Shown here piece by piece: positions 24,610 through 50,054 of a stretch of 56,559 bases of DNA. Both the position numbers and the translations under genes were made by a program. The notes under the pieces were generated by a model. That model was not told where the DNA came from. It saw only the letters and a list, made by a program, of their open reading frames with translations, and ran no database searches. Position 1 is the stretch's first letter. Each line of letters starts with the position of its first letter. The stretch is from Terriglobia bacterium (GTDB taxonomy: Bacteria > Acidobacteriota > Terriglobia > Acidiferrales > UBA7541): assembly GCA_020072805.1 (NCBI GenBank), contig JAIQGC010000007.1, positions 1 through 56,559 of the forward strand, written 5' to 3'.

Positions 24610-25406
24610 GATGATTGTAAACCTCCGGAGGAAGATGGTACGGCACCAGCCGCCTCATGCGCCACCAGGATGCGCGCAATCGCGGCGGCATCCGCCATGG
24701 GCGCCTGTTCGCGGATGCGCGCGGCCCAGGCAGCGATATGCGCCGCGGCAAAGCTGGCGCCCTGTAGATTTTTCTCCTGCGGGCGGCCCGGCAGCGGCCG
24801 GGGGGATGGGTGCGCCAGGAACAGAGGCTCGCCGGACGGCCCTGCGGTGCCCCCTCGGTATTCATCCCAGGAGCAGGCCGGATCAGCGGCGACGGCAATC
24901 ACTCCGGGAAGCGATGCGGGCAGGAGGCCGAAGTGCCCGGGGAGCGAAGCCGCAACAATGCAGGCGCCGCGCGCGGCGGCATGGTCGCAAGCGGCCTGGA
25001 ATAGTGCGCGGTGCTGCGCTTCCGGAGTGCTCAGGCTGCAATTGATGATCTTCGCGCCGTGGTCGGCGGCCCAGCGGATGGCCGCTGCCGCCGCGGCGGG
25101 CGAAGCCTGCAAGCGCTGGTGAAAGATGCGCACGCTGTAGAGCAGGGCGCCGGGCGCCTTGGCACGCAGGACTCCGGCGATGGCCGTGCCGTGGCCCAGG
25201 GCGTCATTCCAGTCGTCCTCGAAGATGACCACTCCGTCTTCTCCGAGGCGAATCGCAATTCCTCCCTCGACCCGGCCAACGTGAGAATGCTTGGGGTTGA
25301 TGCCGCTGTCGATGACGGCGATGGAAACACCCTGCCCCGTGCCCAGCCAGGGCGAAGCACCCGTCTGGGGAGCCGCATCGGGGCGGGAGAGTCCCTGGGC
25401 GGTCAT
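24606..25406 (-). CDS. qhpE: QhpE-like subtilisin-type maturation protease
   Basis: 266 residues, S8 peptidase with the triad Asp33 (IAVIDSGIN), His72 (GHGTAIAGV) and Ser218 (QGASFAAAH), and the oxyanion Asn in IINCSLS. No signal peptide is present, so it is cytoplasmic. In Paracoccus, QhpE removes the leader of the QHNDH gamma subunit after QhpD has cross-linked it. Position in a qhp operon and compact length support the same role. It overlaps qhpF and the following ligase by four bases each. Confidence 0.88.
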   Translation of the reverse strand: MTAQGLSRPDAAPQTGASPWLGTGQGVSIAVIDSGINPKHSHVGRVEGGIAIRLGEDGVVIFEDDWNDALGHGTAIAGVLRAKAPGALLYSVRIFHQRLQASPAAAAAAIRWAADHGAKIINCSLSTPEAQHRALFQAACDHAAARGACIVAASLPGHFGLLPASLPGVIAVAADPACSWDEYRGGTAGPSGEPLFLAHPSPRPLPGRPQEKNLQGASFAAAHIAAWAARIREQAPMADAAAIARILVAHEAAGAVPSSSGGLQSS

Positions 25407-27199: not shown

Positions 27200-27228
27200 G
27201 TTGCGGGATTCCCGGCGCTCCCGTTCGC

Positions 27229-28338: not shown

Positions 28339-28382
28339 GGCTGCCCCCTTGCGTTACTGCGAATCCGTCCTGATGCAAGCCC

Positions 28383-28724
28383 TCAGGGCTTGTTCGGATT
28401 CAGCAAATCGAGATTCTTCCAGTCGCGTTCCGCCGCGGCGCATTTGTCGGCCCAATCGGGGAAATTGGTGATCTGGTCGGGCACCTGCGCCGGCCACCAG
28501 CAGTCGTCCGAGCAGCCATAGAGATCGGCTTCGACGGGCTGGCACAATCCGGTGACGCCGCCGGTGGCATCCGTCTCCCATCCGGGATCGAAGACCAGCG
28601 AACAGCCCAAGTTGGCGCCCTGCATGGCGCTGACGCTCTCCTTGGGATCGGCCGCGGGGGGCTGACCCGTCAATTGCTTCTCAAAGTTCTGCGCTTTTTT
28701 GTTGAGAGGCCGCACGTGTTTCAT
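28383..28724 (-). CDS. qhpC: quinohemoprotein amine dehydrogenase gamma subunit (CTQ carrier)
   Basis: 113 residues: a leader of about 34 residues (MKHVRPLNKKAQNFEKQ...) and a ~79-residue core. When the first core Cys (residue 41) is set to position 7, every cross-link residue known from the Pseudomonas and Paracoccus enzymes falls in register. These are Cys7-Glu16, Cys27-Asp33 and Cys41-Asp49 (thioethers made by QhpD), and Cys37-Trp43 (cysteine tryptophylquinone). Asp33 is also the expected catalytic base. The ATG overlaps the radical-SAM gene stop by four bases. Exceptionally well-supported small gene. Confidence 0.95.
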   Translation of the reverse strand: MKHVRPLNKKAQNFEKQLTGQPPAADPKESVSAMQGANLGCSLVFDPGWETDATGGVTGLCQPVEADLYGCSDDCWWPAQVPDQITNFPDWADKCAAAERDWKNLDLLNPNKP

Positions 28725-30331
28725 ACCGCACCCCGTTTCTCGATAAATTGAGGAAAAAAATCCGGATTGCTTTCCATGATCCGGGCATAGGCATGGAGAC
28801 CGAGATCGATCCAGCTGCGAATCCATTCGCAGTAGTGCGCATTGGCGTGGTACAGGCTGCCGTAATGGGTGTTCGCCTCGTGGTAGCAGCCGCCGGCGCA
28901 GACGTGGCGCACCCAGCAGGTGCCGCAGTGCGGCTTGTTGCTCAGGTGCGCGCGGCTTAGAAAATCGGTCTGACGGGCCACGTCCAGGCCCTCCTGCACG
29001 CTGCCCATGCGGTGTGCGGGGGATTCCGAGAAGCGATGGCACAGGTAGAGGTCGCCATCGGCGCCGACGCCCAGCAGGCCCAGCCCGGCGCCGCAGGGAT
29101 AGTTTTTCGAGATTCCGGTGTGCAGCTCGCCGAGCAGATTGGAAAGATTGGAAAAACCGAAAGACTCGTTTTTCAGGGCGCGCTCGACGTAAATGTCGGA
29201 AAGTTTACGGAAGGCTTCCAGCACGGTCCACAACTCTTCGGATGTCAAAGCAAAATCCTCTTGCGCTGAGGAAGTCACCGGAGCGAAGCCCACTTCGTGA
29301 AAACCCATATCCAACAAGTGCCAGAAGCATTCCTCGACGGCGGTGATGCCGTGGGTGAGCGTGGCGCGCGCGGCCACCGGGCGGGTCTTGTGGCGATGGA
29401 GAAGTTCGAGGATGCGCGGGCGGACGTGGTCGTAGGAGCCCATGCCGTTCTTGTAGGTGCGCCGGAGATCGTTGTATTCCTTGGGGCCGTCGATGCTCAC
29501 CGATACGCCGATGCGGTTTTCACTGAGGAAGTCGATGACCTCGGTGGTCAGACCGGTGGCGTTGGTGGTCATGGTGAAATCCACGTGCTTGCCGGCTTTG
29601 GCCGAGGCTTCCCCGGCGTAGGCCACCACGCGGCGAATGAGGCCGAGATTCATCAGCGGCTCGCCGCCGAAGAACACCAGGGTCACGTTCTTCTGGTCGG
29701 CGGAATTGGCCAGCAGGAAATCCACGCTGCTCCGTGCGGTCTCTTCCTGCATCATGCGCTTGGGAGTGCCGTAATCTCCCTGCGCGGCAAAACAATAGCT
29801 GCAGCCCAGATTGCAATCGTTGGCCACGTTGAGGACCAGGGAGCGCTGCGGAAAGGGCGCCGGAGGAAGCTGGCGCTGCGGAGTTTTCCACTCTTCGCCG
29901 GGAAACCCCGAAAAGCGAATGGCGCGAATGCTGCGCAGTTCCCGCAGGGCCTCCCCGATCTGCTGCCGGTCATGCGTACCTTCAAATGCGCAGAAAATAT
30001 CTTTCAGCAGGACGTAGCCGGCGCCCGCGGCCTGGCGGCCTTCGGTTGCCGGGGCCGGCGCGGACTTTCCCGGCCGCAGGTAATGCAGAATGTCGCGGCT
30101 CAATCCGTCCAGGGCGAAGACGGCGGTGACGTCCACGACGAAGACATAGGAAGAACCGCCAGCGGCGAATTCGCGAATATCGGAAAGCAGCACGGCGGGC
30201 TCATCGGGAGGAACACACAGCGGCGCTTCCACCACCGCTTCCATCGCCGGGGAGAAAATTCCGGCAGCGCCCGCGGGAAGCAGGTGGGAGAGCGGGAGAA
30301 AGTTGTGCGGCAGCCCGTGGGCGTGGCTCAT
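28721..30331 (-). CDS. qhpD: QhpD radical SAM cross-linking enzyme
   Basis: 536 residues. The radical SAM cluster motif is CNLGCSYC (Cys173, 177, 180). The C-terminal SPASM-like region is rich in Cys (CHRF, HCGTCWVRHVCAGGCYHE, HYCEW) for auxiliary Fe-S clusters. QhpD forms the three intra-chain Cys-to-Asp/Glu thioether bonds in the gamma subunit. It is longer than the Paracoccus protein (about 476) mainly at the N-terminus. It sits between qhpA and qhpC as in the classical operon. Confidence 0.93.
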   Translation of the reverse strand: MSHAHGLPHNFLPLSHLLPAGAAGIFSPAMEAVVEAPLCVPPDEPAVLLSDIREFAAGGSSYVFVVDVTAVFALDGLSRDILHYLRPGKSAPAPATEGRQAAGAGYVLLKDIFCAFEGTHDRQQIGEALRELRSIRAIRFSGFPGEEWKTPQRQLPPAPFPQRSLVLNVANDCNLGCSYCFAAQGDYGTPKRMMQEETARSSVDFLLANSADQKNVTLVFFGGEPLMNLGLIRRVVAYAGEASAKAGKHVDFTMTTNATGLTTEVIDFLSENRIGVSVSIDGPKEYNDLRRTYKNGMGSYDHVRPRILELLHRHKTRPVAARATLTHGITAVEECFWHLLDMGFHEVGFAPVTSSAQEDFALTSEELWTVLEAFRKLSDIYVERALKNESFGFSNLSNLLGELHTGISKNYPCGAGLGLLGVGADGDLYLCHRFSESPAHRMGSVQEGLDVARQTDFLSRAHLSNKPHCGTCWVRHVCAGGCYHEANTHYGSLYHANAHYCEWIRSWIDLGLHAYARIMESNPDFFPQFIEKRGAV

Positions 30332-30344
30332 CCGGCGGCGCTCC

Positions 30345-31922
30345 TCAGTGAATCGGGAATTGCACGTAAAGCGGCACGGTCACCAGCACGTAGGCCCGGG
30401 CCTTCAACGGCTGCTGTGCGCCCGGGGGCGTATAGCTGGCTTCCACCCAGACGTCGCCGGCGTTATTGGTCGAGCGCAGCCGCGCCGGGTTGGGACCTTC
30501 CTCCGCGGGAGTGAACAGGCCGTTCTGGTTCACGCTGCCCACGAAGGAGACATCCTTTTCCCCAAACGAGGCATACGCCTCCGCCATGCTCCAGGAAGCC
30601 TGCACGGCGCCCAAGTCCAGATCGTCGGCAGTGCCGGGCAGGCCGTCCGCGCCGTTGCTCCATGCGTGTGCTTCAAACTGGGCGAATTCCTTTTGGTAAT
30701 GGATGCCCCCGAGGCGCGCCATGGCGTGATCCGGCGTAACGCGCAGGTAGTCGGCGTTTTCATACACGATGAACTGTCCCGCGCCGGAAATCGCTCCCGT
30801 CTTTACGTCGCGTGCGCCCGGTTTCGCGGCAGGGTCCACGCTGATGACCGCTTCGATATGGTCCGGAGCAGCTTCCACGATTTTTTCAACGCTGACGCCG
30901 TCGCCCAGATGCAAATCGGCGTGTTGCGCGGGCGGAGTCATGAGAATGCCGGCGATGCGGATGGTCACGTGGCTGGAGCCGCGACGAACCGCGCCGGGCA
31001 AAACGGCCAGCACGCGGGGAGCGCCTTCCACGCGATAGCGGACTTCCCTGGCTCCCAGTTCGGGATGCTCGAGTGGGAACCAGCGCCCGCGCAGGGTATT
31101 CTGGTCCGCGGAAAGATGAAAGACTTCGCGTGTCTTGTCCTTTTCCCCGCGCAGGGCATTGCCGCGCCAGGCGTAGGCGCCGAACCAGCGGCCCTTGCCG
31201 CGCACGGTTTCCTTCTGCCCGCTGGCAAATGCCAGTGCGGTTTCGCTTTGGCGGCCGCCGTCGGGAAGCGTGCGGAAGCTCAGCAGACCCGTGTAATCTC
31301 CCTTGCCCGGCTGGCTGCCCACAACCACCCACTGGCCCTCACCGGGAGCGGTGGCGTCCTTTTCCTTTTTCCACTCGGGAGTTTCCAGAGGAAAGTGGTC
31401 GGCGAGCCAGGCCAGATTTTCATCGGCTAGTTTGGGCCAGTCGACTTGCCGGTGCTGGTAGATCATGGCCGGATACATGCCCATGAGAAAATCCTTCAGC
31501 TTGAGCCATTCCTCGCGGGTGCGGCGCTGCCCGGCAATCTTGCCGTAGCTGTGACAGCCGGCGCACGCCGCCTTCATGTGCTCGCTGGGTATTTCTTCGC
31601 TCGTTTCCTCGCGTTCAAGGACGTAGGCAATGGGGGCCAGTTCCGAGGCCGTGAGACCGTGATTGTCGGAGAGGTATTGGACGATCTGCCGGGCCGCGTC
31701 GGGGGTAAGGGAAACGCCGTGAATCCGGACCATGCGCTTGACGGTCAATTCCCATTCTTCCGGCGGTTTGCGCACGTAGGAGATGCGGCTCATGCGCCCC
31801 TGGGCATCCACCTGGTGGCAGGCCCCGCAGGAGTCGCGCACCAGTTGGGACTTGACCGGCAAACCTTCCGCGGAAACACCCGCCGCCAGCATCAGACAGC
31901 CGAGAGAGAGCAACCAGCGCAT
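30345..31922 (-). CDS. qhpA: quinohemoprotein amine dehydrogenase alpha subunit (diheme)
   Basis: 525 residues from the ATG at 31920-31922, chosen because GGAGG lies five bases upstream and it gives a clean signal peptide MRWLLSLGCLMLAAGVSA. Two c-type heme motifs, CGACH (32-36) and CAGCH (120-124), occupy the N-terminal cytochrome domain. Three beta domains follow, as in the QHNDH alpha subunit. Electrons from amine oxidation at CTQ pass through the hemes to a periplasmic acceptor. It is the first gene of the operon, with a long (~235 base) leader. Confidence 0.93.
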   Translation of the reverse strand: MRWLLSLGCLMLAAGVSAEGLPVKSQLVRDSCGACHQVDAQGRMSRISYVRKPPEEWELTVKRMVRIHGVSLTPDAARQIVQYLSDNHGLTASELAPIAYVLEREETSEEIPSEHMKAACAGCHSYGKIAGQRRTREEWLKLKDFLMGMYPAMIYQHRQVDWPKLADENLAWLADHFPLETPEWKKEKDATAPGEGQWVVVGSQPGKGDYTGLLSFRTLPDGGRQSETALAFASGQKETVRGKGRWFGAYAWRGNALRGEKDKTREVFHLSADQNTLRGRWFPLEHPELGAREVRYRVEGAPRVLAVLPGAVRRGSSHVTIRIAGILMTPPAQHADLHLGDGVSVEKIVEAAPDHIEAVISVDPAAKPGARDVKTGAISGAGQFIVYENADYLRVTPDHAMARLGGIHYQKEFAQFEAHAWSNGADGLPGTADDLDLGAVQASWSMAEAYASFGEKDVSFVGSVNQNGLFTPAEEGPNPARLRSTNNAGDVWVEASYTPPGAQQPLKARAYVLVTVPLYVQFPIH

Positions 31923-32140
31923 GGCATCCTCCATGACGGAGACCCGAAAGATTCCGAAAGATAATCCGAAGCAACGTCCCGCACGGCCTCCAGGACGCTC
32001 AAATTAAGTCTTAAACCAGCGCAGCATACCGTACCCGCGCCGCAAAAGATACCGATCCAAAGGCAACCTGCCGGAGAACAATCCAACGTCTGCGGGAAGG
32101 AGAGAGCGCCGAAAAGGTTCGTCTGAATTCATTGCAGTTG

Positions 32141-32308: not shown

Positions 32309-33085
32309 ATGAACTACCAGCACATTACTCTGAACATGGAGGGCGGCACGGCGGTGGTGACCCTGAACCGGCCCGCGCGCCGCAATGCCCTGGCGCTGGA
32401 AATGATGCAGGAGCTGATCCAGTGCTTTGACGGGCTGGCGGTGAACCGTGAGGCCCGAGCCGTCATCCTGGCCGCCGCCGGCAATGTGTTCTGCTCCGGG
32501 CATGACCTGGGCGAGATGGTCGGGCGGGATATCAACGAGTACCGCCACCTGTTCGACGTGTGCACGGTGCTGATGACGCGCATTCAATCCCTGCCGCAGC
32601 CGGTGATTGCCGAAGTGCAGGGCGTGGCTACTGCGGCGGGATGCCAGTTGGTAGCCACCTGCGACCTGGCCATCGCCTCGGAAAAGGCTTCTTTCGCGAC
32701 GCCGGGCGTGCGCATCGGTCTTTTCTGCACCACGCCCATGGTGGCGCTTAGCCGCGCCGTCGGACGCAAGCGCGCCCTGCAGATGCTGCTGACCGGTGAA
32801 CTCGTGGATGCACGGACGGCGACGGACTGGGGACTGGTAAATTTCGTCGTGCCCGCGGAAACGCTGGCGGCGGAAACCCGCAAGCTGGCCGAGCGGATTT
32901 CTGGAGCGAGTTCGCTGACCATCGGCCTGGGCAAGCAGGCCTACTACTCGCAGATCGATCTTGACCAGCCCAAGGCCTACGCCTACGCCAAGGAAGTGAT
33001 GAGCATGAATTCGCTGGCGCTGGACGCGCAGGAAGGCATTAGTGCATTTCTGGAGAAGCGGCCGGCCTGCTGGGTGGGGCGTTAG
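32309..33085 (+). CDS. crotonase-family protein lacking both hydratase glutamates
   Basis: 258 residues. The ATG at 32309 has AGGAGAG five bases before it. The crotonase fold is clear: oxyanion-hole segments FCSGHDL and GVATAAGCQLVA, and the conserved SRAVGRKRALQMLLTGE. The position of catalytic Glu144 of enoyl-CoA hydratase is Gln (GCQLV), and the Glu164 position (FATPGVRIG) is Gly. Simple hydratase chemistry is therefore doubtful; ECHDC3-like proteins share this pattern. It is convergent with the U32 gene, overlapping its end by four bases, and divergent from qhpA. Confidence 0.85.
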   Translation: MNYQHITLNMEGGTAVVTLNRPARRNALALEMMQELIQCFDGLAVNREARAVILAAAGNVFCSGHDLGEMVGRDINEYRHLFDVCTVLMTRIQSLPQPVIAEVQGVATAAGCQLVATCDLAIASEKASFATPGVRIGLFCTTPMVALSRAVGRKRALQMLLTGELVDARTATDWGLVNFVVPAETLAAETRKLAERISGASSLTIGLGKQAYYSQIDLDQPKAYAYAKEVMSMNSLALDAQEGISAFLEKRPACWVGR

Positions 33086-34182
33086 TCGCCCGGCATAGAC
33101 GCCGGGCGGCTTTCCGAAATAGTCGTTAACTCGGGATTCTTTGCCGGCCGTTCAGTGGCCGACGGATTTTCTTCCCATTCGTAATAGCACATCTCTCCCG
33201 GCACGCAGCGCGCAGGCGCCAGGCGAATGCTTTGGGCATGCTCCTGCACTTCACTTTCGGAGGCTCCGGCCCGCTGGCGGGCCACGACGGAGCGGACCAG
33301 GCGCAGACTCATCAGCTTGCGCATGGCCGAGGCTTCCCGGCCCACAATTTTGAGCGAAGCCACCCCGATCCTTTCGAAAAAGGGAATGGCGCAAAGCCCG
33401 CAGGGGCCGGGCAGAACCGCGCCCGCACCCTGCTCCGAACAGGCGCTGTTGGTAAGGACGCCGATGCGCCGGCGGAAATCATCGAGCAATTTTGCCGCGG
33501 CTTCCTCTTCCCCCTCGCGCCAGGGATTACCGGAAAGCTTCACGGTCTCCGAGGACATTTTCACGAGATTGGTGCAGAAGGCGCCGACGGAATGATGGTG
33601 CGTCGTGAGGCAGTTTCCTTCCTCGAAGATGCAGCCATCGTTCAAGATGAAGGTTTCAATTTCCATTTGCGGGCCGGCGGTAGTAACGATGCGCGCGATT
33701 TCCGGCAGAGTCAGGCTGCGCGGCAGGATGACGCGGCGCACGCCCAGCGAGCGGAAAAATTCAATGGCGCTGCTGTTCAGCGTGGCAGCGATCGAGCTGA
33801 GGTGCAGCGCGCAGGAAAGATTCTCTTCGGCCAGGGCCATCAGCAGGCCCGGGTCGGAGATGATCAGGGCGTCCGCGCCGGCTTCCCCGACATAGCGCCG
33901 GGCCAGCTCGACGACCAGCGGCAGCTGCCCGGCGGTATAGGTCTGTGCATTCAGCGTGATGAAAACGGGAACCGCTGCGCGATGGGCCTGCTCGATAACC
34001 CGGCCGAGGTCGGCGAAGGTGCGCAGATTGCCGCCCACCGGGCTGCGGCGGTTCAGCCAGACCGCGCCGGTGTAGCGTTCGACCCACTCGTCGGGCACCA
34101 TCCCGCAGTAAAGCTCCTCGGCACCGTTGGCCAGGAGCATCTCCGTCTCATCCACGCCGTTTAAGGGAGCAAGAATCTTCAC
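33082..34182 (-). CDS. U32 family protein, UbiU-like
   Basis: 366 residues from a GTG at 34180-34182. The TIM-barrel N-terminus (MKILAPLNGVDETEMLLANGA) and central signature EIETFILNDGCIFEEGNC match the spacing of the U32 family signature (E-x-F, then C-x4-G-x-C). Cys184-x6-Cys191 has the spacing of two [4Fe-4S] ligands of UbiU. Further Cys occur at 203, 248, 261 and 264, followed by IPFFERIGVASLKIVGR, typical of U32. Family members include collagenase-like proteins and, better established, oxygen-independent hydroxylases (UbiUV, RlhA, TrhP). It lies six bases after its partner gene and may act on a substrate of the adjacent amine-dehydrogenase system. Confidence 0.8.
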   Translation of the reverse strand: MKILAPLNGVDETEMLLANGAEELYCGMVPDEWVERYTGAVWLNRRSPVGGNLRTFADLGRVIEQAHRAAVPVFITLNAQTYTAGQLPLVVELARRYVGEAGADALIISDPGLLMALAEENLSCALHLSSIAATLNSSAIEFFRSLGVRRVILPRSLTLPEIARIVTTAGPQMEIETFILNDGCIFEEGNCLTTHHHSVGAFCTNLVKMSSETVKLSGNPWREGEEEAAAKLLDDFRRRIGVLTNSACSEQGAGAVLPGPCGLCAIPFFERIGVASLKIVGREASAMRKLMSLRLVRSVVARQRAGASESEVQEHAQSIRLAPARCVPGEMCYYEWEENPSATERPAKNPELTTISESRPASMPGD

Positions 34183-39732: not shown

Positions 39733-39814
39733 AGAAAACTCTTTGGCAGGGGAGCGGGATTTTGCAGCGGACCGGCAAGAACAACGGAAATCCAGGCAAG
39801 TCGGGAGAGCACCG

Positions 39815-41134
39815 ATGAATGCACAACCAGCCCGGACGAGCGAAGCGCCAAAACTCGAATCCCTTCCGCGGGAGCAACTGCGCAGCCTGCAACTGGCCAA
39901 GTTGCAGAATGTCTTGAAGCGCGTCGCGGCATCCGTCCCCTTCTACCGACGAAAATTCGAAGCCGCCGCGATTCGCGCGGACGAAATCCGCAGCCTGGAA
40001 CAGCTCCGGCAGCTTCCCTTCACCACCAAAGCCGACCTCTGGGAAAACTATCCCTTCGGCCTGCTAGCCACGCCATCCGAGGAAGTTTCGCGCGTGCATG
40101 CGTCCTCCGGCACCAAGGGAAAATTGACCCTGGCGGCCTATACCCGCAAAGATGTCACCCAATGGGGGGAATTGATGGCCCGCTGTCTGTCCGCGGCGGG
40201 CGCCAGGGCGGGCATGCGCGTCCTGAACGCCTATGGTTACGGATTGTTCACCGGCGGCCTGGGATTTCACTATGGCGCGGAGCATCTCGGCGCGACCGTC
40301 ATTCCCATTTCCGGCGGCAACACCGCCCGCCAGGTGCAATTGCTCGAAGACCTGCAGCCCGAAGTGCTCTGCTGCACTCCTTCCTTCGCGCTGACCATCG
40401 CGGAAGCCTGCGAACAATCCGGCTCCGGCAAACCGCTCAATCTGAAAATCGGCCTCTTCGGGGCGGAGCCGTGGACCGAATCCATGCGCGCGCAAATCGA
40501 AAAGCGCCTGGGCCTCTCGGCCTTTGACACCTATGGCCTGAGCGAAGTGGGCGGCCCGGGCGTGGCCCAGGAGTGCGCCGAAAAAACCGGCGGTCTGCAC
40601 GTCTGGGAAGATTTTTTTCTCCCCGAAGTGATTGACCCCAGAACTGGCGATCCTCTGCCTCCCGGCGAAGAAGGCGAACTGGTCCTGACCACGCTGGAAC
40701 GCGAAGCCATGCCGCTGGTTCGCTATCGCACCGGGGACATCACCACGCTCGATGCGCAAACCTGCGCCTGCGGACGAACCCATGCGCGCATTCGCCGCAT
40801 CCGCGGCCGCCGCGACGACATGCTGATCATCCGCGGGGTCAACGTCTATCCCTCGGAGATCGAATCCGTGCTGCTGAAGTTCGAGGAAGTTCTGCCGTTC
40901 TACGAACTCCATCTCGATCGCCCCAGGACGCTCGACCAGCTTACCGTCCGCGTGGAATGTGCCGGGCGGCACCTCGATGGCCAGGCCGCCGGCAGCGAAC
41001 TCGCGGGCAGGCTGCAATCGGCCATCGCCAGCCGCTGCGCCGTGCGCGTGGAAATCGAGCTTCTGGCCACCGGCACGCTGACCCGCAGCATCGGCAAAGC
41101 CTTGCGCATCGTGGACAAGCGGCCCAGGGAGTAA
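39815..41134 (+). CDS. paaK: phenylacetate-CoA ligase
   Basis: 439 residues, full PaaK length. It makes arylacetyl-CoA from the acid, CoA and ATP. Motifs: HASSGTKGKLTLA (P-loop variant of SSGTTGKPT), YGYGLFTGGLGFHYGAE, YGLSEVGGPGVAQEC, YRTGDIT and GRRDDMLIIRGVNVYPSEIE. The ATG at 39815 aligns with the family N-terminus. It follows paaX by 82 bases. No genes for ring epoxidation (paaABCDE) or benzoyl-CoA reduction are in the window, so the fate of the product is decided elsewhere. Confidence 0.95.
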   Translation: MNAQPARTSEAPKLESLPREQLRSLQLAKLQNVLKRVAASVPFYRRKFEAAAIRADEIRSLEQLRQLPFTTKADLWENYPFGLLATPSEEVSRVHASSGTKGKLTLAAYTRKDVTQWGELMARCLSAAGARAGMRVLNAYGYGLFTGGLGFHYGAEHLGATVIPISGGNTARQVQLLEDLQPEVLCCTPSFALTIAEACEQSGSGKPLNLKIGLFGAEPWTESMRAQIEKRLGLSAFDTYGLSEVGGPGVAQECAEKTGGLHVWEDFFLPEVIDPRTGDPLPPGEEGELVLTTLEREAMPLVRYRTGDITTLDAQTCACGRTHARIRRIRGRRDDMLIIRGVNVYPSEIESVLLKFEEVLPFYELHLDRPRTLDQLTVRVECAGRHLDGQAAGSELAGRLQSAIASRCAVRVEIELLATGTLTRSIGKALRIVDKRPRE

Positions 41135-41205: not shown

Positions 41206-41967
41206 ATGCAACTGAAAACCATGCGCTACAGCGTGGAAGGTCCGGTGGCAAAAATTGAGTTCACCCGGCCGGAGGCCCTCAACGCCATGAACCGTCCGTG
41301 GTCGCAGGACTTCATGGATGCGACCACGGCCGTCGGCAAGGAAAAGAAAGTGAAAGTGGTGGTCATCTCCGGCGCCGGGCGGGCCTTCTGCAGCGGCATC
41401 GACCTGAAGACCCTTTCCACCGAGGGCTATCCCATGGGCTGGTTCCGGCTCTACGAGCGCTCCCTGCGCAATCTCGAGACCATGAGCAAAATCGTCATCT
41501 GCGCCATGCACCGCTACAGCATCGGCGGCGGCATGCAGGTGGCTCTCGCCAGCGACATCCGCATCGCCACGGAAAGCACCGAGTTTGCCCTGACCGCCGT
41601 CAAGGAGTGCCTGATTCCCGGCATGGGCACCTACCGCCTGGCCCGCTTCATCGGGCTGGGCCGCGCCAAGCGCATCATTCTCTCCGGCGAATACATCGGC
41701 GCCCGGGAAGCTCATGCCATGGGCCTGGTGGATTATCTGGTCCCGGACGCCGATTTCGAAAAGCGCGTGAAGGAGATTACCGACATCTACGTGCACACCC
41801 ACTCCGAAGGGCAGCGGCAGTCGAAGAAGCTTATGGACCAGTGCTTCGACCTCAAATGGCAGCCGTTCCTGAACAAATATTTGACTGCACAAAAGACCAC
41901 GCTCTCTTCCGCCGAACACAAGGAAGCCGCGAAGCATTACCGCGAGCAGGGACAGCACCGCTTCTGA
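41206..41967 (+). CDS. crotonase-family protein, probable acyl-CoA isomerase or hydrolase
   Basis: 253 residues with AGGAGGAG before the ATG. Fold motifs: RAFCSGIDLKTL and CAMHRYSIGGGMQVALASD. The Glu144 position of enoyl-CoA hydratase is Gln (GGGMQV) and the Glu164 position (FALTAVKECLIPG) is Ala, as in the other crotonase of the window. It probably does not act as a standard hydratase. It is in line with paaX-paaK and likely acts on an aryl-acyl-CoA. Confidence 0.85.
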   Translation: MQLKTMRYSVEGPVAKIEFTRPEALNAMNRPWSQDFMDATTAVGKEKKVKVVVISGAGRAFCSGIDLKTLSTEGYPMGWFRLYERSLRNLETMSKIVICAMHRYSIGGGMQVALASDIRIATESTEFALTAVKECLIPGMGTYRLARFIGLGRAKRIILSGEYIGAREAHAMGLVDYLVPDADFEKRVKEITDIYVHTHSEGQRQSKKLMDQCFDLKWQPFLNKYLTAQKTTLSSAEHKEAAKHYREQGQHRF

Positions 41968-42014: not shown

Positions 42015-42596
42015 TCAGGCGGAAATTTTCGCCGGGACGCAGAGCGCATCCGCCGGCGCCACTTCGAGCGCCAGCGCGTAACCCGCTTCCAGCGCGCGGA
42101 GATTGGTTGCTTCGGTCCCCTTGGGAACACGGGCCGCCACGGCCTGCCGCAGCGCTTCGATGGTGACCAAGCCGGAAATTTTTGCAATCACGCCCAGGCA
42201 AACCATGTTGGCCGCCACTTCCCTGCCCATCTTCTGCCGCGCCGTCTGCAAGATGGGCACGCTATGCACGCGGAAAGGTCCCGAAGGCGGATTGGTCACC
42301 CGCTTGGAATCGGCAATCAGCAGCCCCCCCGGTTTCAGTTTGCTGGAAAACGTATCGCAGGACTTCTGCGTCAGGCACAGCAGCAAATCCAGATGCGCGC
42401 AAATCGGATAATCAATCTCTGTATCGCTGATGATCAGGTCCGAACGGCAGCCTCCGCCGCGCGATTCCGGCCCATACGACTGCGTATAGGTGACGAATTT
42501 TCCGCCGTAAATCCCCGCGGCTTCCGCCAGAATCGCTCCGGCCAGCACCAGCCCCTGCCCGCCTTCTCCGCTCAACCGGACTTCGTAGCGTTCCAT
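42015..42596 (-). CDS. korC: 2-oxoacid:acceptor oxidoreductase, gamma subunit
   Basis: 193 residues with the gamma-subunit glycine motif RLSGEGGQGLVLAGAILAEAA and the SYGPESRGGGCRSDLI segment typical of KorC. In the complex, alpha, beta and gamma bind thiamine diphosphate and CoA and pass electrons to a ferredoxin domain. It is the last gene of a five-gene minus-strand unit. The true substrate (2-oxoglutarate or an aryl-2-oxoacid) cannot be read from the sequence. Confidence 0.88.
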   Translation of the reverse strand: MERYEVRLSGEGGQGLVLAGAILAEAAGIYGGKFVTYTQSYGPESRGGGCRSDLIISDTEIDYPICAHLDLLLCLTQKSCDTFSSKLKPGGLLIADSKRVTNPPSGPFRVHSVPILQTARQKMGREVAANMVCLGVIAKISGLVTIEALRQAVAARVPKGTEATNLRALEAGYALALEVAPADALCVPAKISA

Positions 42597-42623: not shown

Positions 42624-43421
42624 CTAAGCGACGCTCTCCGCGTAGACCGCTCCATATTCCGGCCGCGGTTCGTGATGCAGAATGCCGGTAAGCATTTTTC
42701 CGCGCAGCCTCTCGGCCGGCAGCGCGGCAGCCGCTTCCACGTCCACCACGTTCTGCTTCTGCATCAGGATCTGGTCCGCGGGATTGCCCAGCTTGTTGAA
42801 GCGCCCGAAAAACTCCGGGCAATCGCTGGCCACTTCCAAAAACGAAAAACCCTTGTTCTCGATCGCCGCCACAATCAATTTTTCCAGCGCGCTCGGCTCA
42901 TACGTGATTCCCCGCGCCACGAAGCTCGCTCCCGCGGCCTCCGCCAGCTTGCAGGAATCGAACGGCGTCTCGTACTGCCCCTTGGGGCTGGTGGTGCTCA
43001 CTCGTCCGATCTGCGTGGTCGGAGCAAATTGCCCGCCGGTCATCCCGTAAATCTGGTTGTTCAGCAAAAGGCAGGTCAGTCCCACGTTGCGCCGCGCGGC
43101 ATGAATCAAATGATTGCCCCCGATGGACAGCCCGTCGCCGTCGCCGGTGATCACGATCACGGTCAGCTCCGGCCGCGCCAGCTTGATCCCCGTGGCAAAC
43201 GCAAGCGGCCGCCCGTGCGTCGTATGCAGCGTATTGAAATCCACGTAGCCCGCCAGGCGGCTGGAACAGCCGATCCCCGACACCACCACGATTTCGTCCT
43301 TGGTGAGTTTCAAGGAGTGAATCGCGCGCAGCAGCGCGCCCAGCACGATGCCGTGCCCGCAGCCGGGGCAGAGCATGTGCGGAAACATTTCCATGCGCAG
43401 ATACTCCCGGAAATCAAACAT
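42624..43421 (-). CDS. korB: 2-oxoacid:acceptor oxidoreductase, beta subunit
   Basis: 265 residues, thiamine-diphosphate-binding subunit. FPHMLCPGCGHGIV, SGIGCSSRLAGYVDF, and the TPP motif GDGDGLSIGGNH ... LLLNNQIYGMTGGQ are all clear. The start overlaps the end of the alpha gene by eight bases. Confidence 0.93.
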   Translation of the reverse strand: MFDFREYLRMEMFPHMLCPGCGHGIVLGALLRAIHSLKLTKDEIVVVSGIGCSSRLAGYVDFNTLHTTHGRPLAFATGIKLARPELTVIVITGDGDGLSIGGNHLIHAARRNVGLTCLLLNNQIYGMTGGQFAPTTQIGRVSTTSPKGQYETPFDSCKLAEAAGASFVARGITYEPSALEKLIVAAIENKGFSFLEVASDCPEFFGRFNKLGNPADQILMQKQNVVDVEAAAALPAERLRGKMLTGILHHEPRPEYGAVYAESVA

Positions 43422-44568
43422 GGCGCACTTCCTTTCCCTCGATCGCCAGCAGAATCTCCTCCGGGCTGATCGCTTCCCCGTCGGCTTTCAGGCAGCTCTC
43501 CACATCCTTGCTGCGGCCGATAACCCGCTGCACCTCTCCGCTCATCTGCCCCAGGTTCATTTCCGCCACGATTACCCGTGAAGCGCCTGCGCAGGCCGCG
43601 GCAAGTTCCTCTCCGGGAAAAGGCCACAGCGTGATGGGGCGAAACAGCCCGGCGCGGATTCCTTGTTTGCGGGCCTCGCGCACCGCCCGGCGGGCGGCCG
43701 CCGCGACGATGCCGTAGGCAAACACGATCACTTCCGCGTCCTCCGTATCGAGAAGCTCGTAGCGCATCAGCCCCTCGCGATTGCGCACCGTCTTTTCCTG
43801 CAACCGCCGGTTCGTCGCCGCCACCAGCTTGGGGTCCTGTGTCGGATACCCGCGGTCGTCGTGCGCCAACCCGGTCACGTGGTAGCGGTAACCGTCCCCG
43901 AACGGCGCCATCACCGGAACGCCATCCGCTCCCGGCGTAAACGCCGCGTGCTTCCCCGGCTCGCACGTGGGACGCGCGCGATTTTCCACGGGCAGGTTCG
44001 CCAGCCGGCGCATGTCCACCTTCTCGTACATGTGCGCCACCACTTCATCCATCAGCAGGATCACCGGCGTGCGCAAACGTTCCGACAAATTAAACGCCAG
44101 CACGGTCAGCTCGTAGACTTCTGCGGGCGTGCTCGGGCACAGCGCAATCGCCGGATGATCCCCGTGCGTCCCCCAGCGCGCCTGCATCACGTCTCCCTGC
44201 GCCGGCAGCGTGGGCAGCCCCGTGCTCGGTCCGCCGCGCATCACGTTCACAATCACGCAGGGCACTTCCGCGTAACACGCGTAGCCGATGTGCTCCTGCA
44301 TCAGCGAGAATCCCGGACCGCTCGTCGCCGTCATCCCCTTCACTCCGGCCAGCGACGCGCCAATCACCGCTCCCAGCGAGGCAATCTCATCCTCCATCTG
44401 AATGAATTTCCCCCCGGCGGGAGGAAGCAGACGGGCCATCACTTCCGCAATTTCCGACGACGGACTGATGGGGTAACCTGCGTAGAAGCGGCAGCCCGCG
44501 GCCAGCGCCGCGCGCGCGCAGGCCGCATTCCCCTGCAGCAATTGAACGGTTTTCGTTGCGGCTCCCAT
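43414..44568 (-). CDS. korA: 2-oxoacid:acceptor oxidoreductase, alpha subunit
   Basis: 384 residues from the ATG at 44566-44568 (MGAATKTVQLLQGNAACARA). Contains GCRFYAGYPISPSSEIAE, the EDEIASLGAVIGASLAGVKG segment and TSGPGFSLMQE, standard for the KorA/PorA pyrimidine domain, and a C-terminal FRPITLWPFPGEEL. It lies 11 bases after the iorB-korD fusion. Confidence 0.93.
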   Translation of the reverse strand: MGAATKTVQLLQGNAACARAALAAGCRFYAGYPISPSSEIAEVMARLLPPAGGKFIQMEDEIASLGAVIGASLAGVKGMTATSGPGFSLMQEHIGYACYAEVPCVIVNVMRGGPSTGLPTLPAQGDVMQARWGTHGDHPAIALCPSTPAEVYELTVLAFNLSERLRTPVILLMDEVVAHMYEKVDMRRLANLPVENRARPTCEPGKHAAFTPGADGVPVMAPFGDGYRYHVTGLAHDDRGYPTQDPKLVAATNRRLQEKTVRNREGLMRYELLDTEDAEVIVFAYGIVAAAARRAVREARKQGIRAGLFRPITLWPFPGEELAAACAGASRVIVAEMNLGQMSGEVQRVIGRSKDVESCLKADGEAISPEEILLAIEGKEVRHV

Positions 44569-44579
44569 TGCGCAGCTCC

Positions 44580-45428
44580 CTACTGAACGCGCACGGCCAG
44601 GTCCGGGCACATCCATTCGCACAGCATGCAGCGAATGCACGCCTCCGCCTTGACCACTTCCGCGCGGTTCCGCTCGTTCATCTTCAGGCACGCCTGCGGG
44701 CAGACCACCACGCAGATCTCGCAGCCCTTGCACCAGCTGTCGTGAATCGCAATCTCCGGCGCATCCAGGCAAGTCACGCTGCGGCTCATCTCGCATTTTT
44801 CCGAGGGCAGCGAATCCCTCATCGCCGCGAACTGCGCATTGCGCCCCGCCAAAAACGCTTTCTGGTTGCGCTCCACCGTCTTGGGCTTCACGCTGGCCGC
44901 AATCGCCCCCAGCCAGTCCTGCAACTCGAATTCGCACACGCTCGATAGCGCCCCCAGCAGCACCGTATTGCACATGCGGTGGTCGCCGATCTCCACCGCC
45001 AGCTCTTCCGCGTCAAACTGCCGCACGTCGCCAACCTGCCCGCGCAGCGCCTGCTCAATCCCCTGCGGGTAACGCGTCGGCGCGTCCATGCGGCGATCCT
45101 GGCAGGCCGCCGGAGGAATGCGCTTGCGCGAGTTCACAATGATCGTGCCGCCCGGCTTCACGTACTTGCTCCAGCGCAGCGCCTCAGCCGGCTCAAAGGC
45201 CAGCAGAACGTCACTCGTCCCCGGCTCGATCGTTGGCGAAAGCACCTGCGCGCCATAACGCACGTGGCTGTACACCACGCCGCCGCGCTTGGCCATCCCG
45301 TGCACTTCGCTTTTCTTCACCTGATAACCGCGGTTCATGCACACCACGCCCAGAATGTCGCTGGCCAGAATTACGCCCTGGCCGCCCACGCCCACGATCA
45401 GCACATTCTGCGTTCCGTTGGGTTCCAT
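44580..45428 (-). CDS. iorB: indolepyruvate oxidoreductase beta subunit fused to KorD-type ferredoxin
   Basis: 282 residues. Residues 1-~195 are IorB (NVLIVGVGGQGVILASDIL, EVHGMAKRGGVVYSHVRYG). The C-terminal ~70 residues form a two-[4Fe-4S] ferredoxin domain with Cys233, 236, 239, 243 and Cys264, 267, 270, 274 (WCKGCEICVVVCP, CIRCMLCEWMCPD). That domain resembles the separate KorD delta subunit of 2-oxoglutarate:ferredoxin oxidoreductase. No free korD is present in the operon. The second ATG (45428) is preferred because AAGG is seven bases away; an ATG at 45434 is possible. Confidence 0.9.
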   Translation of the reverse strand: MEPNGTQNVLIVGVGGQGVILASDILGVVCMNRGYQVKKSEVHGMAKRGGVVYSHVRYGAQVLSPTIEPGTSDVLLAFEPAEALRWSKYVKPGGTIIVNSRKRIPPAACQDRRMDAPTRYPQGIEQALRGQVGDVRQFDAEELAVEIGDHRMCNTVLLGALSSVCEFELQDWLGAIAASVKPKTVERNQKAFLAGRNAQFAAMRDSLPSEKCEMSRSVTCLDAPEIAIHDSWCKGCEICVVVCPQACLKMNERNRAEVVKAEACIRCMLCEWMCPDLAVRVQ

Positions 45429-45438: not shown

Positions 45439-47262
45439 TTACACCGTGCGCCGGGCCGGATCGGCCGCCAGCGGAATGATGGCGTTCGTCTGACAAAGCA
45501 GTCCGCAGACCGCGCAGCCCATGCATGCAACCGGATCAATCGTTACCTTGTGCTGCCCTTCGTGCATCTCCTCGGTCCAGATAATCGCCGGGCACCCCAG
45601 ATTCATGCACATCTGGCAGGCATTGCATTCCTTCGCGGTGACCGCGTACGGCGTGGTGCGAATCGTAGCCGGAGAAACTACGCAGGGGCGATTGGTGATC
45701 ACCACGGAAACGCCGTCATATTGAATGGCCGACTTCAGCGTGCGAAATACGGCGGAGACGTCGTACGGGTCCACCACCTCGACGAATCCCGCGCCCAAGG
45801 CCTTGCACAGCGTGGCGATGTCCACAGTCCGCGCCGTTTCTCCGCGCAAATTCTTTCCCGTCCCGGCATGCTCCTGGCCGCCGGTCATCGCCGTGGTCTG
45901 ATTGTCCAGGATGACCACGGTAATCTTGACGTTGTTGTAGAGCGCGTCGATCAGCGGCGGTATGCCCGAATGAAAAAACGTCGAATCGCCGATCGTAGCC
46001 ACCACCGGGCGGGTGCCGTCTCCGCCCTTCTGCAAGCCCACGGCCATTCCGATGCTGCAGCCCATCGCCAGCGTCGTATCAATCGCCGCCAGCGGCTCAT
46101 ATACCGCCAGCGTGTAGCAGCCAATGTCTCCGGCCACCAGCGCATTCAGCTTCTTCAAGACCAGATAAGGCACCGTATGCGGACAACCGGGGCATAACGC
46201 CGGAGGCCGGAAAAGATTTTCTTTCACCGCTGCGGCAGCTCCGGCAGTTTCCGGCGCCTTCGGCATGGGCAAAACCCCAGCCTTCTGAAAACCCGCGCGC
46301 ACCCGCTCCGGACTGAATTCGCCCAATCGCGTGAAATATTCCTTGCCCTCCGCCTGAATCCCATTGGCCTTCAACTGCTCCTCGATTACCGGCTCCAGTT
46401 CCTCGACCACCAGCAGGCGGTCCACGCTCGCCGCAAAGTTCCGCAGCCGGTGAATGGGCAGGGGATTCATCAGCCCGATTTTAAACACGCTGGCATCGGG
46501 GAGAATCTCCTTGACGTACTGGTAGCACACCCCGCTGGTGATGACGCCAATTTCGCTGCTGCCCTTCTCCCAGCGGTTCAATTCCGTCGTTTCCGCAAAC
46601 TCCCGTAGCAAGCCCGTGCGTTCCACCACCTTTTCATGGCGCACCCGCGCGTTGCTCGGCACCAGCACGAATTTATTCAGGTTTTTCTCGTATTCCTTGG
46701 CGCGGGAGGGTTGAATCGTTCCCAGCGTGACCATGCCCTTGCTGTGCGAAAGCCGCGTCGTGCTGCGCAGAAGAACCGCCGTGTCAAAACGCTCGCTGAT
46801 TTCGCAAGCCAGCTGAAAAAAATCCTTGGCTTCCTGGCTGTCCGAGGGCTCCAGCAACGGCAGTTCCGCGAACCGCGCATACATCCGGGTGTCCTGCTCG
46901 TTCTGCGAACTGTGCACGCCCGGGTCGTCCGCCACCACGATCACCAGCGCCGCTCGCACGCCCGTGTAGGCCACGCTCATCAGAGTGTCCGCTGCCACGT
47001 TGAGCCCCACGTGCTTCATGGTCACCAGCGCGCGGCTACCGGCCACGGCTGCGCCCACTCCCACGTCCAAAGCTACTTTTTCATTGGGGGACCAGGAAAC
47101 GTAGTGCTCGCTGTCGTACCGCGCCAGGCTTTCCAGAATTTCCGTGCTGGGCGTCCCCGGATAGCCCGTGGCCACCCGGATGCCGTTCTCCAATGCGCCG
47201 CGCGCAATGGCCTCATTGCCGGAGAGCAGCACCTGCGCCGGAGAGCTGATCGCTGTGGCCAT
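45439..47262 (-). CDS. iorA: indolepyruvate:ferredoxin oxidoreductase alpha subunit
   Basis: 607 residues, full length. Pyrimidine domain GYPGTPSTEILE, TPP domain CPGCPHTVPY ... IGDSTFFHSGIPPL ... LDNQTTAMTGGQEH, and a C-terminal pair of [4Fe-4S] motifs (CNACQMCMNLGCP and CMGCAVCGLLCQ). It decarboxylates aryl-2-oxoacids (indolepyruvate, phenylpyruvate, p-hydroxyphenylpyruvate) to arylacetyl-CoA with IorB, reducing ferredoxin. It heads the iorA-iorB/korD-korA-korB-korC unit. Confidence 0.96.
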   Translation of the reverse strand: MATAISSPAQVLLSGNEAIARGALENGIRVATGYPGTPSTEILESLARYDSEHYVSWSPNEKVALDVGVGAAVAGSRALVTMKHVGLNVAADTLMSVAYTGVRAALVIVVADDPGVHSSQNEQDTRMYARFAELPLLEPSDSQEAKDFFQLACEISERFDTAVLLRSTTRLSHSKGMVTLGTIQPSRAKEYEKNLNKFVLVPSNARVRHEKVVERTGLLREFAETTELNRWEKGSSEIGVITSGVCYQYVKEILPDASVFKIGLMNPLPIHRLRNFAASVDRLLVVEELEPVIEEQLKANGIQAEGKEYFTRLGEFSPERVRAGFQKAGVLPMPKAPETAGAAAAVKENLFRPPALCPGCPHTVPYLVLKKLNALVAGDIGCYTLAVYEPLAAIDTTLAMGCSIGMAVGLQKGGDGTRPVVATIGDSTFFHSGIPPLIDALYNNVKITVVILDNQTTAMTGGQEHAGTGKNLRGETARTVDIATLCKALGAGFVEVVDPYDVSAVFRTLKSAIQYDGVSVVITNRPCVVSPATIRTTPYAVTAKECNACQMCMNLGCPAIIWTEEMHEGQHKVTIDPVACMGCAVCGLLCQTNAIIPLAADPARRTV

Positions 47263-47463: not shown

Positions 47464-48438
47464 TCAATACGCTTTCAGGCTCCGCGCCGCTTCAATCACG
47501 TCTTTGGCGTTGGGAAGAAACGCTTCTTCCAGCGGCGCGCTGAAGGGCACCGGACAATCCGGCGAAGCAATGCGCATCAACGGCGCATCCAGGCTTTCAA
47601 ACGCCTTTTCCGCGATGCGCCCGGCCAGTTCCCCGGCAAAACCGCCCTGCATCGTGTCCTCATGCAGCAGAATCACCCGGCTGGTCTTGCGCACGCTGGC
47701 CAGCACCGCCTCTTCATCGAGCGGCACCAGGCAACGCAGGTCAATCACCTCGGCCTCGATTCCCTCTTTAGCCAAGACCTCCGCAGCCTCCAACGCCACG
47801 AACACCATCGCCCCATAGGTGATGACGGAAACATCCCGCCCCACACGGGCAATTCGCGCTTGCCCCAGCGGAACAACATAGTCTCCCGCCGGAATCTCCT
47901 CCTTGATTCTCCGGTAGAGCAGTTTGTGCTCGAAATACAGCACCGGGTCGGGGTCGCGAATCGCCGCCTTGATCAATCCCTTCGCGTCATAGGCGCTCGC
48001 TGGAACCACCACTTTCAATCCCGGCGTATGCACAAACGGCATTTCCGGATTATTGGAATGAAATGGCCCGCCATGCACGCCCCCTCCCGACGGCCCGCGA
48101 ATCACCATGGGCACGCCCGCTCCCCAGCGATAACGCGCTTTCGCCGCGTAGTTCACGATCTGGTCGTAGGCCGTGGTGATGAAATCGGCGAACTGCAGCT
48201 CCACAATCGGCCGCAGTCCCATGATCGCCGCGCCGATCGCCGCTCCCAGAAACGCGTTTTCCGCCAGCGGCGTGTCAATAATGCGCCGCTCTCCAAAGTG
48301 CTCCAGCATTCCCGCCGTCACTTTGAATGCCCCGCCGTAGGCGCCGATGTCTTCCCCCAGCAGGAAGACATCTCCGTCGCGCTCCATCTCTTCCCAGATT
48401 CCCTCGCGAATCGCTTCCAGATACGTCCGTTCGGCCAT
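47464..48438 (-). CDS. 2-oxoacid dehydrogenase E1 beta subunit
   Basis: 324 residues, transketolase-like pyruvate/branched-chain E1 beta. Motifs YLEAIREGIWEEMERD, FLLGEDIGAYGGAFKVT and GLRPIVELQFADF are standard; the C-terminal part contains EAEVIDLRCLVPLDEEAVLASVRKT. It lies three bases after E1 alpha. No E2 acyltransferase or E3 gene is in the window, so it may use those of another complex. The substrate (pyruvate, branched-chain 2-oxoacid or acetoin) is undetermined. Confidence 0.9.
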   Translation of the reverse strand: MAERTYLEAIREGIWEEMERDGDVFLLGEDIGAYGGAFKVTAGMLEHFGERRIIDTPLAENAFLGAAIGAAIMGLRPIVELQFADFITTAYDQIVNYAAKARYRWGAGVPMVIRGPSGGGVHGGPFHSNNPEMPFVHTPGLKVVVPASAYDAKGLIKAAIRDPDPVLYFEHKLLYRRIKEEIPAGDYVVPLGQARIARVGRDVSVITYGAMVFVALEAAEVLAKEGIEAEVIDLRCLVPLDEEAVLASVRKTSRVILLHEDTMQGGFAGELAGRIAEKAFESLDAPLMRIASPDCPVPFSAPLEEAFLPNAKDVIEAARSLKAY

Positions 48439-48441
48439 GTC

Positions 48442-49455
48442 CTAATTCCCTTTCGCCGGCGAAGCCGCCGCTTGTGGATTTTTCGCCTGGCTATCGGCAA
48501 ACACGCCGTCCAGCAATTCTCCGGCGTCGGGAAAAGGAGACTCTTCGGCCCGTTGCACCGCTTGCTCGATCTCCTCCGCAATCCGCTCATACATCCGGGC
48601 AATTTCCTCCGCGGTAAGCAATCCTCGCTCCCGCAAAACTTTCTCGAACCGCGCGATGGGGCATTTGCCGGCCCACTCCTCGAAGAGTTCCTTGGGCACA
48701 TACTCCGCGCCGTCATGCGCGGAATGCCCGCTCATCCGAAACGTTTCGCATTCAATCAGCGTCGGCCCTCCTCCGCTTCGGGCCTGGAGAATGGCTTCTT
48801 GCGTGGCCTCATACACGGCCAGCACATCGTTGCCGTCCACGCGCCGGCAGGGCATCCCATAACCGCTCGCGCGATCCGTGATGTGCGCCACGGCCATCTG
48901 CCGCTGCGTCGGCGTCGAATACGCATATTTGTTGTTGTTGCAGAGATACACGATGGGCAGCTTGAAGACCGCCCCGTAATTCATCGCTTCATGCCACTCG
49001 CCCCGGCTGGTAGCCCCGTCGCCGAAGTAGCACAGCACCACATTGGGCTGCTTGCGGTATTGAAAGGAAAAAGCCACGCCGTTGGCCACCGGCACAATCG
49101 CCGCCATCGAGCTGATATAGGAAATGATGCGATGCTTGAGCGAACCCATGTGCGTGTTTCCGTCGCGCCCCCGCGTCGGTCCGTCGCGCCGTCCCAGATA
49201 ATGCGCGAAAATCACCCACGGCTCCATTCCGCGAATCAGGAATGCCGCCAAATCCCGGTGGCACGGACAGACCGCATCCTCCGCTTCGGTTAGAATCGCG
49301 CTGCCGGTGGATATGGCCTCCTGCCCGCGCCCAAAAAACACCCCGCCCACGATCTTTCCCTGACGGTACAGCTTCTCGATGCGGTGCTCCATCTCGCGCA
49401 TCATTTTCATGCTGTAGAGCATCCTGCCGCCTAGTTCACTTGTGATTGCGCTCAT
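48442..49455 (-). CDS. 2-oxoacid dehydrogenase E1 alpha subunit
   Basis: 337 residues from MSAITSELGGRMLYSMKMMREME. The TPP motif GDGATSRGEWHEAMNYGAVF ... LCNNNKYAYSTP is intact, as is the phosphorylation-loop-like region MSGHSAHDGAEYVPKEL. It forms the heterotetrameric E1 with the following gene. GAGGGA precedes the ATG. The Ala/Pro-rich C-terminal tail is probably disordered. Confidence 0.92.
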   Translation of the reverse strand: MSAITSELGGRMLYSMKMMREMEHRIEKLYRQGKIVGGVFFGRGQEAISTGSAILTEAEDAVCPCHRDLAAFLIRGMEPWVIFAHYLGRRDGPTRGRDGNTHMGSLKHRIISYISSMAAIVPVANGVAFSFQYRKQPNVVLCYFGDGATSRGEWHEAMNYGAVFKLPIVYLCNNNKYAYSTPTQRQMAVAHITDRASGYGMPCRRVDGNDVLAVYEATQEAILQARSGGGPTLIECETFRMSGHSAHDGAEYVPKELFEEWAGKCPIARFEKVLRERGLLTAEEIARMYERIAEEIEQAVQRAEESPFPDAGELLDGVFADSQAKNPQAAASPAKGN

Positions 49456-50054
49456 TCCCTCTCCCTCAGTCCCCGGAATTTCCACTCGCGGCCTGAATGT
49501 GGGAAGCGAGTATAAGCCTCCTTCCCTCGGCGCACCACTCCGAAAACAAGCCGGCCACATTTCTCGAACTTAGCCCCGCGTCCATGCGCGGCGAACCGCT
49601 TCCGCCTGTCCTGCCTCACCACTGCGCGTCGGAGTAGGTGTCCACAATGGCGCCCGACTCCGATTCGACCGCTTCTGGCAGTTCGGCAACCGGAGGCCCT
49701 CACACCCCAATGGCTCGAATTCGCATGCAACGGCAAGCCTAAACTTTCGAATTCGCTCCATGCATCGTCTACTTCGTTGCCGGCGACGACCGCTTTGCTT
49801 CGACGATCGACGTCGGTGCCAAGAACGCAGGGCAAAGAGTAAACCCACTCTGCGTTCTCCCGAAAAACGAAATCATTTCTTAGAATGGCTTGTGACCATG
49901 CTCACCTTTCATGGTGACTTGGCCCACTGACATCACTCGCGATGAAGCATTTAATTAAAAGCAAAAGACTTGGCGAACGTCAAATCTCTCCGCAGGGAGA
50001 GACCGGAGGTCGAGAGTCTTTACGTCATGTGTTTGTGCAAAGGAGAACTAGGCC
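49456..50054. other. 599-base non-coding stretch, start of a less GC-rich segment
   Basis: No convincing gene. Short frames on the minus strand (49570-49848) are Arg/Pro-rich noise without a ribosome-binding site. A hairpin TCTCTCC-GCA-GGGAGAGA lies at about 49984-50001. AAGGAGAACT precedes the next gene. Base composition shifts here from the GC-rich style of the left part. Confidence 0.5.

Follow-up and report, generated by a model that had tools for sequence, protein, structure and literature searches.

Results

Organization of the ior/kor operon

The DNA analysed here (the window, which denotes the whole stretch of 56,559 nucleotides) belongs to contig JAIQGC010000007.1 of the Terriglobia bacterium assembly GCA_020072805.1, a draft genome in 157 contigs. 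It harbours five genes in the order iorA - iorB::korD - korA - korB - korC, all on the same strand and as described in an earlier sequence-only reading of this DNA, with 10 bases between iorA and iorB, 11 between the fused gene and korA, an 8-base overlap of korA and korB, and 27 bases between korB and korC. The iorA gene (45439..47262, minus strand) specifies a 607-aa indolepyruvate ferredoxin oxidoreductase alpha subunit that exceeds the cut-off of its IOR_alpha model (TIGR03336, 710 bits, cut-off 650.9). The alpha subunit of the second 2-oxoacid oxidoreductase, encoded by korA (43414..44568, minus strand), scores over the general family model NF006412 (550.8 bits, cut-off 411) but under the 2-oxoglutarate-specific NF007206 (424.4, cut-off 579). 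The korB gene (42624..43421, minus strand) encodes the beta (TPP) subunit, with PF02775, 8ys5_C as top PDB chain and 292.4 bits for NF007207 (under the cut-off of 364), while korC (42015..42596, minus strand) encodes the gamma subunit of the second enzyme, with PF01558 and a TIGR02175 score of 77.7 bits, just under 81.1. IorAB and KorABC each possess TPP and gamma subunits of their own, and TPP-domain families are retained in both enzymes according to Pfam.

Convergent with the operon is a PaaK-like phenylacetate-CoA ligase gene (39743..41134, plus strand; TIGR02155 551.8 bits, under the cut-off of 646.3), in which the first ATG lies further in, and a gene of the enoyl-CoA hydratase family (41206..41967, plus strand; PF00378, 149 bits) is also present. 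Directly upstream of iorA, the minus strand at 47464-49560 encodes E1 alpha and beta subunits of the pyruvate dehydrogenase type, which also occur upstream in loci L079 and L233, so that a third 2-oxoacid enzyme is encoded beside the two ferredoxin-dependent ones.

The fused gene iorB::korD

The second gene of the operon (44580-45428, minus strand) is open from an ATG at 45428 to a stop at 44580 and encodes a single protein of 282 aa, in which an IorB part is followed by a variable linker and a ferredoxin domain with eight cluster cysteines. The IorB part (residues 1-200; 44829..45428, minus strand) is a gamma-type domain matched by the Pfam POR family (PF01558) over residues 15-196 and by NCBIfam IorB models that stop near residue 199. 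The linker (about residues 201-225; 44754..44828, minus strand) shows low conservation and low pLDDT at 201-220, and the korD part (residues 226-282 plus stop; 44580..44753, minus strand) contains two [4Fe-4S] motifs, with Pfam 4Fe-4S domains within residues 223-278 and matches to the NCBIfam OorD and OGOR_delta models over residues 222-281. The scores of the latter matches are under the cut-offs, that of the KorD domain alone being 42 for NF007205 against a cut-off of 93, and KorB, KorC and KorD thus all fall short of the KorDABC/OorDABC models. The IorB part is likewise under the cut-offs of the IorB models (at best 222.3 against 237 bits for NF005322, and 160.7 against 205.8 bits for TIGR03334), yet despite this IorB models were the top NCBIfam matches in 59/59 fused members.

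Both parts lie in one uninterrupted frame in 85/85 loci, which include the best 80 of 138 named relatives and represent 83 distinct sequences (L079 is identical to L051, and L152 to L002); at L120 the contig stops within the last cluster motif and so truncates the fused gene. Since a single frame is observed in all of these loci, the fusion is neither a sequencing error nor a product of chance, and the suspicion that an error had joined two genes at about 44800 is thereby removed.

Among 59 fused sequences the linker measures 24-42 residues (median 32), with Ala, Pro and Glu abundant, and its column conservation is 0.26 as compared to 0.73 and 0.75 for the flanking parts. AlphaFold2 modelling of the fused single chain returned a mean pLDDT of 85.4 and a pTM of 0.74, with values below 50 solely at residues 210-219 and below 70 in the blocks 41-50, 101-120 and 201-220. 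The top Foldseek matches were gamma-delta chains of oxalate oxidoreductase, to which both domains aligned at an rmsd of 13.5, suggesting that the mutual arrangement of the domains either differs from that of oxalate oxidoreductase or is undefined; taken by itself, the gamma domain superposes on 8ys5_B with an rmsd of 2.6. The union of a gamma and a delta domain in a single polypeptide, as in gamma-delta fused oxidoreductases, is therefore evident from the reading frame, Pfam and Foldseek alike. The window linker contains a Met at residue 213, and a Met of any position occurs in 20/59 linkers; an internal start at Met213 was considered and rejected, as it is not conserved and 0/4 of the relatives first compared have a Met there.

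Identity of the C-terminal domain

Relatives of the window KorA (E <= 1e-60) are present in 111/247 genomes of the phylum, and the best 30 KorA loci comprise two with the fusion and 28 unfused. A korD-like frame lies just upstream of korA, with no iorB there, in 27/28 of the unfused loci, L201 being devoid of korD. A free-KorD model was constructed from 29 sequences found with the window domain as query, namely the 27 upstream korD frames together with L229 and L230, and compared with an IorA-ferredoxin model built from unfused operons. The fused domains scored a median of 78.0 bits with the former as compared to 29.8 bits with the latter, and KorD was preferred in 84/84 cases, a motif filter having dropped one of the 85 fused proteins; for the window domain the values were 76.7 and 23.3 bits. 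In the PDB the fused protein is matched best by Helicobacter pylori OorD (8ys5_D, 38.2 bits), although some polyferredoxins outscore OorD when a profile is used. The tail domain is accordingly identified, at the sequence level, as KorD, the delta subunit expected for KorABC, because a free korD holds that position in nearly all related loci and because the free-KorD model is uniformly preferred. This substantiates, by gene position as well as sequence, the earlier proposal of a delta ferredoxin domain at the IorB C-terminus.

Iron-sulfur clusters of IorA

The C-terminal two-cluster ferredoxin domain that had been attributed to IorA was found: its eight cysteines, located at 546-590, show a conservation of 0.95-1.0 in 75-76 rows, and 74/74 IorA tails of fused operons have at least eight cysteines. 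Twelve cluster cysteines are conserved in 76 IorA rows, eleven of them fully and one at 0.95, the first four of which are, in this family, ligands of the proximal cluster. With twelve cluster cysteines in IorA and eight in the KorD domain, the IorA-IorB/KorD pair is predicted to hold five [4Fe-4S] clusters, three in IorA and two in KorD, rather than the four per alpha-beta pair that were initially counted.

Distribution and history of the fusion

In a scan of named genomes, for which five fused proteins were aligned to form the query, each of the best 80 of 138 relatives matches into the ferredoxin domain, exceptions being possible among the other 58. These 80 belong to Pseudomonadota (73, of which 49 Alphaproteobacteria), Acidobacteriota (three) and Actinomycetota (one), with three unassigned, and the fused sequences include the cultured strains Rhodopila globiformis, Blastochloris sulfoviridis and Afifella pfennigii. 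A near-full-length match occurs in just 3/297 genomes of the phylum (this genome, G041 and G253). Within the genus the fusion was present in 3/36 genomes searched (this one, G303 and G305), several of the 36 being incomplete, and in the class of A. pfennigii a full-length match was obtained in 4/385 genomes, Afifella included, with one more matching the first third only. As the fusion is rare within each group yet scattered across many, horizontal transfer is suggested. Plasmid carriage was rejected, the two plasmids encountered having unfused IorB only.

A survey of IorB proteins and their operon context, as proposed in the earlier reading, shows that the operon is preserved with the fusion. 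Among the best 80 of 138 named loci iorA was present in 78, korA in 78, korB in 72 and korC in 67, with every miss at a contig end (at L156 a short korA piece is visible there); iorA and korC are thus present in 78/78 and 67/67, respectively, of those long enough to show them. Unfused IorB proteins of the phylum end near residue 200, and their loci contain iorA in 27/27 cases and korA or a ferredoxin part in 0/27, within at most 1.5 kb on each side and less in some. The 27 unfused IorB loci and the 28 unfused korA loci were the best-scoring ones rather than a random sample, and some are short on one side.

In an IorB tree calculated by a quick method from 35 fused and 28 unfused rows, a branch with an SH-aLRT of 96 places all fused rows together, which is consistent with one fusion event; L203, L205, L212, L216 and L218, whose matches are KorC, were left out, and the window row was thinned and is represented by L079. 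The history of KorA is less clear: in a tree of 30 fused and 29 free rows, two changes are required to account for the fused ones, two being forced by well supported branches and a single change occurring in 1% of bootstrap trees, while a single fused clade was not rejected (p-AU 0.188). This tree was calculated without L120, L156, L228, L230, L234, L024, L231 and L095, near copies were thinned, and L050 alone stands for the window group.

Search for a free korD

No free korD was found in the genome, in line with the initial statement that a separate delta gene does not exist, and an independent gene that might supply the KOR complex from elsewhere, one of the two objections foreseen, was thus not encountered. 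TIGR02179 gave 24 matches, none over the cut-off, three of which lie in the operon and 21 elsewhere. Fifteen of these 21 were inspected: twelve lie in ten NCBIfam-named frames (two NuoI-like, FDH-beta, PFOR, TtrB/DsrO-like and others) and three were read and scored, being an ordinary small ferredoxin on contig C12 (13.5 bits) and two others; the remaining six are weak, one lying in a frame of 50 aa and five in longer frames (379-1047 aa). When the genome was searched with a profile built from the fused domain, the fusion scored 99.8 bits and the runner-up, a 501-aa frame, 32 bits. In 13/13 fusion-bearing genomes the fused domain ranked first against its own profile, the second match reaching at most 62 bits. 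Blastochloris (G354) and the congener G303 have a separate delta-like gene beside another oxidoreductase; in B. sulfoviridis this is a free 82-aa OorD-like gene (L229) preceding another korA-korB-korC, with the fusion in the same genome. The window genome itself contains a further KorAB-type enzyme on contig C68 (L049, L234), whose gamma and alpha parts form a single polypeptide, and contig C140 encodes a single-chain PFOR, so that the fused operon is not the genome's sole source of such enzymes.

Metabolic context

The genes around the fused operons suggest aromatic acid metabolism and low oxygen. Among the 80 named loci (best 80 of 138), PaaK-like genes occur at 26, and at 17 of the 46 with long flanks; PaaI was found in six, and Liv-type transporter clusters in 15 and 13. 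Clusters of UbiT, UbiU and UbiV are present in 10, 9 and 8 of these 80 loci, among them L084, L097, L120 and related loci such as that of Emcibacter; because these genes serve ubiquinone synthesis without oxygen, their proximity hints that the fused operon is used at low oxygen. Neighbour families were delimited by single-linkage clustering and named from one representative each, those of PaaI, UbiT, UbiU and UbiV being over model cut-offs and the Liv-type ones under. Phenylacetyl-CoA epoxidase as the usual destination was rejected, PaaA being present in only 2/13 genomes with the fusion.

The window also carries a quinohemoprotein amine dehydrogenase cluster at 22885-31934 on the minus strand, with an alpha subunit and a radical-SAM maturation protein over NCBIfam cut-offs, a QhpE-like protease just under the cut-off, an ABC transporter and an acyl-CoA ligase. 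Acids formed from amines by this cluster may be passed on to the ior/kor and PaaK gene products. At 33082-34182 (minus strand) a protein is encoded that is weakly similar to TrhP and UbiU (83.5 and 82.3 bits, far under the cut-offs).

Discussion

With the electron-carrying subunit of one enzyme attached to a subunit of the other, the two are probably built as one machine. On the strength of the gene fusion and its conservation we consider it likely that iorB::korD tethers an arylpyruvate and a 2-oxoglutarate-type oxidoreductase into one assembly, with IorB carrying the electron outlet of KorABC. IorA and IorB would form one enzyme of the indolepyruvate (arylpyruvate) type whose electrons exit through the IorA clusters, while the KorD domain, on the flexible tail of IorB, would dock on KorABC and act as its outlet to external ferredoxin. 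As KorD would thus ride on IorB and dock on the second enzyme, both enzymes would be made in a fixed ratio and held together, the probable stoichiometry being (IorA, IorB-KorD, KorA, KorB, KorC)2. IorA has an electron outlet of its own, and KorABC has none in the operon except the IorB tail. The suggestion of the sequence-only reading that KorABC might borrow electrons through IorB is not supported as worded, since all conserved cluster cysteines of the aligned fused proteins sit in the KorD domain; KorD would, more simply, be the usual outlet of KorABC. We infer a role for the assembly under low oxygen, in the breakdown of aromatic acids or amino acids.

It is unlikely, to our mind, that the fusion does no more than fix the subunit ratio, with KorD cleaved off or produced from an internal start and the enzymes remaining separate. 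The disordered and variable linker and its Met at residue 213 would agree with such an arrangement, but most linkers lack any Met, the first relatives compared have none at the window position, and cleavage would be a detour because relatives have a free korD gene.

Also improbable is that the fused domain is an extra relay of the IOR next to a delta-less KorABC, the neighbourhood reflecting shared regulation only. In its favour, the domain is covalently attached to IorB, and the top fold match, oxalate oxidoreductase, is a single enzyme served by gamma-delta chains. Enzymes of the superfamily without a delta subunit or an intramolecular ferredoxin domain exist (PMC5020499, section 11), and KorABC therefore need not use KorD. 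Against this, IorA already holds a full two-cluster domain in 74/74 tails, the fused domain groups with KorD in 84/84 cases, korD occupies that position in 27/28 related korA loci, and tail and korA are both absent from 27/27 unfused IorB loci in the flanks of up to 1.5 kb, less in some.

A coupled reaction, in which electrons and CO2 from IorAB pass inside the complex and KorABC carboxylates succinyl-CoA to 2-oxoglutarate, is given little credence here. Were it to operate, arylpyruvate + succinyl-CoA would in sum yield arylacetyl-CoA + 2-oxoglutarate, and the amino acceptor for aromatic amino acid transamination would be regenerated without net ferredoxin consumption. Hybrid enzymes in which IorB-KorD acts as the gamma-delta subunit of KorAB are very improbable: the top fold matches, oxalate oxidoreductase and PFOR, do combine gamma and delta in a single polypeptide, but a second gamma gene, korC, was retained in every named locus long enough to show it (67/67), as was iorA (78/78), among the best 80 of 138. 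An artefact, with two genes run together through loss of a stop codon or through misassembly, could be imagined for a draft genome in which the linker Met might be the old korD start, but is refuted by the 83 distinct fused sequences, some of them from named cultured strains.

The favoured tethered assembly was compared with known systems. The second enzyme resembles H. pylori OorDABC (8ys5), which is the best PDB match of the window KorB (250.8 bits) and of the ferredoxin domain and the second-best of KorA (310.5 bits), but in which OorD is a separate 113-aa chain with no IorAB partner. The window shares the D-A-B-C order of the H. pylori oor genes, but the independent delta subunit is replaced by fusion to IorB in 85/85 loci. 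It likewise shares with IorAB systems an IorA above its model cut-off and an IorB with the usual gamma domain, and differs in the additional C-terminal two-cluster domain of IorB. The gamma-delta chain of Moorella thermoacetica oxalate oxidoreductase (5c4i, 5exd, 5exe) also places a gamma before a ferredoxin domain on one chain; by descent, however, the window gamma belongs to the IOR and the delta to the KOR.

Gamma-delta fusions and domain shuffling within one 2-oxoacid oxidoreductase are known, and in oxalate oxidoreductase the gamma and delta domains both serve one enzyme. In the available part of PMC13285125, HpdDEFG is described as a p-hydroxyphenylpyruvate ferredoxin oxidoreductase oxidising arylpyruvates, and a survey reports several subunit fusions within one enzyme; arylpyruvate oxidation is the likeness to the system proposed here, but that part contains no fusion between two oxidoreductases. 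No description of an IorB-KorD fusion, or of the gamma subunit of one enzyme joined to the delta of another, was found in the open PMC literature, searched with partly unspecific terms and with preprints and most subscription papers outside its scope.

What sets these loci apart is that the electron outlet of one enzyme is joined to a subunit of another. The fusion explains two annotation puzzles, an IorB with an iron-sulfur tail and a KorABC seemingly without a delta subunit. As both enzymes are encoded beside the fusion wherever contigs are long enough among the best 80 of 138 relatives, the organization of these loci predicts a two-enzyme redox assembly.
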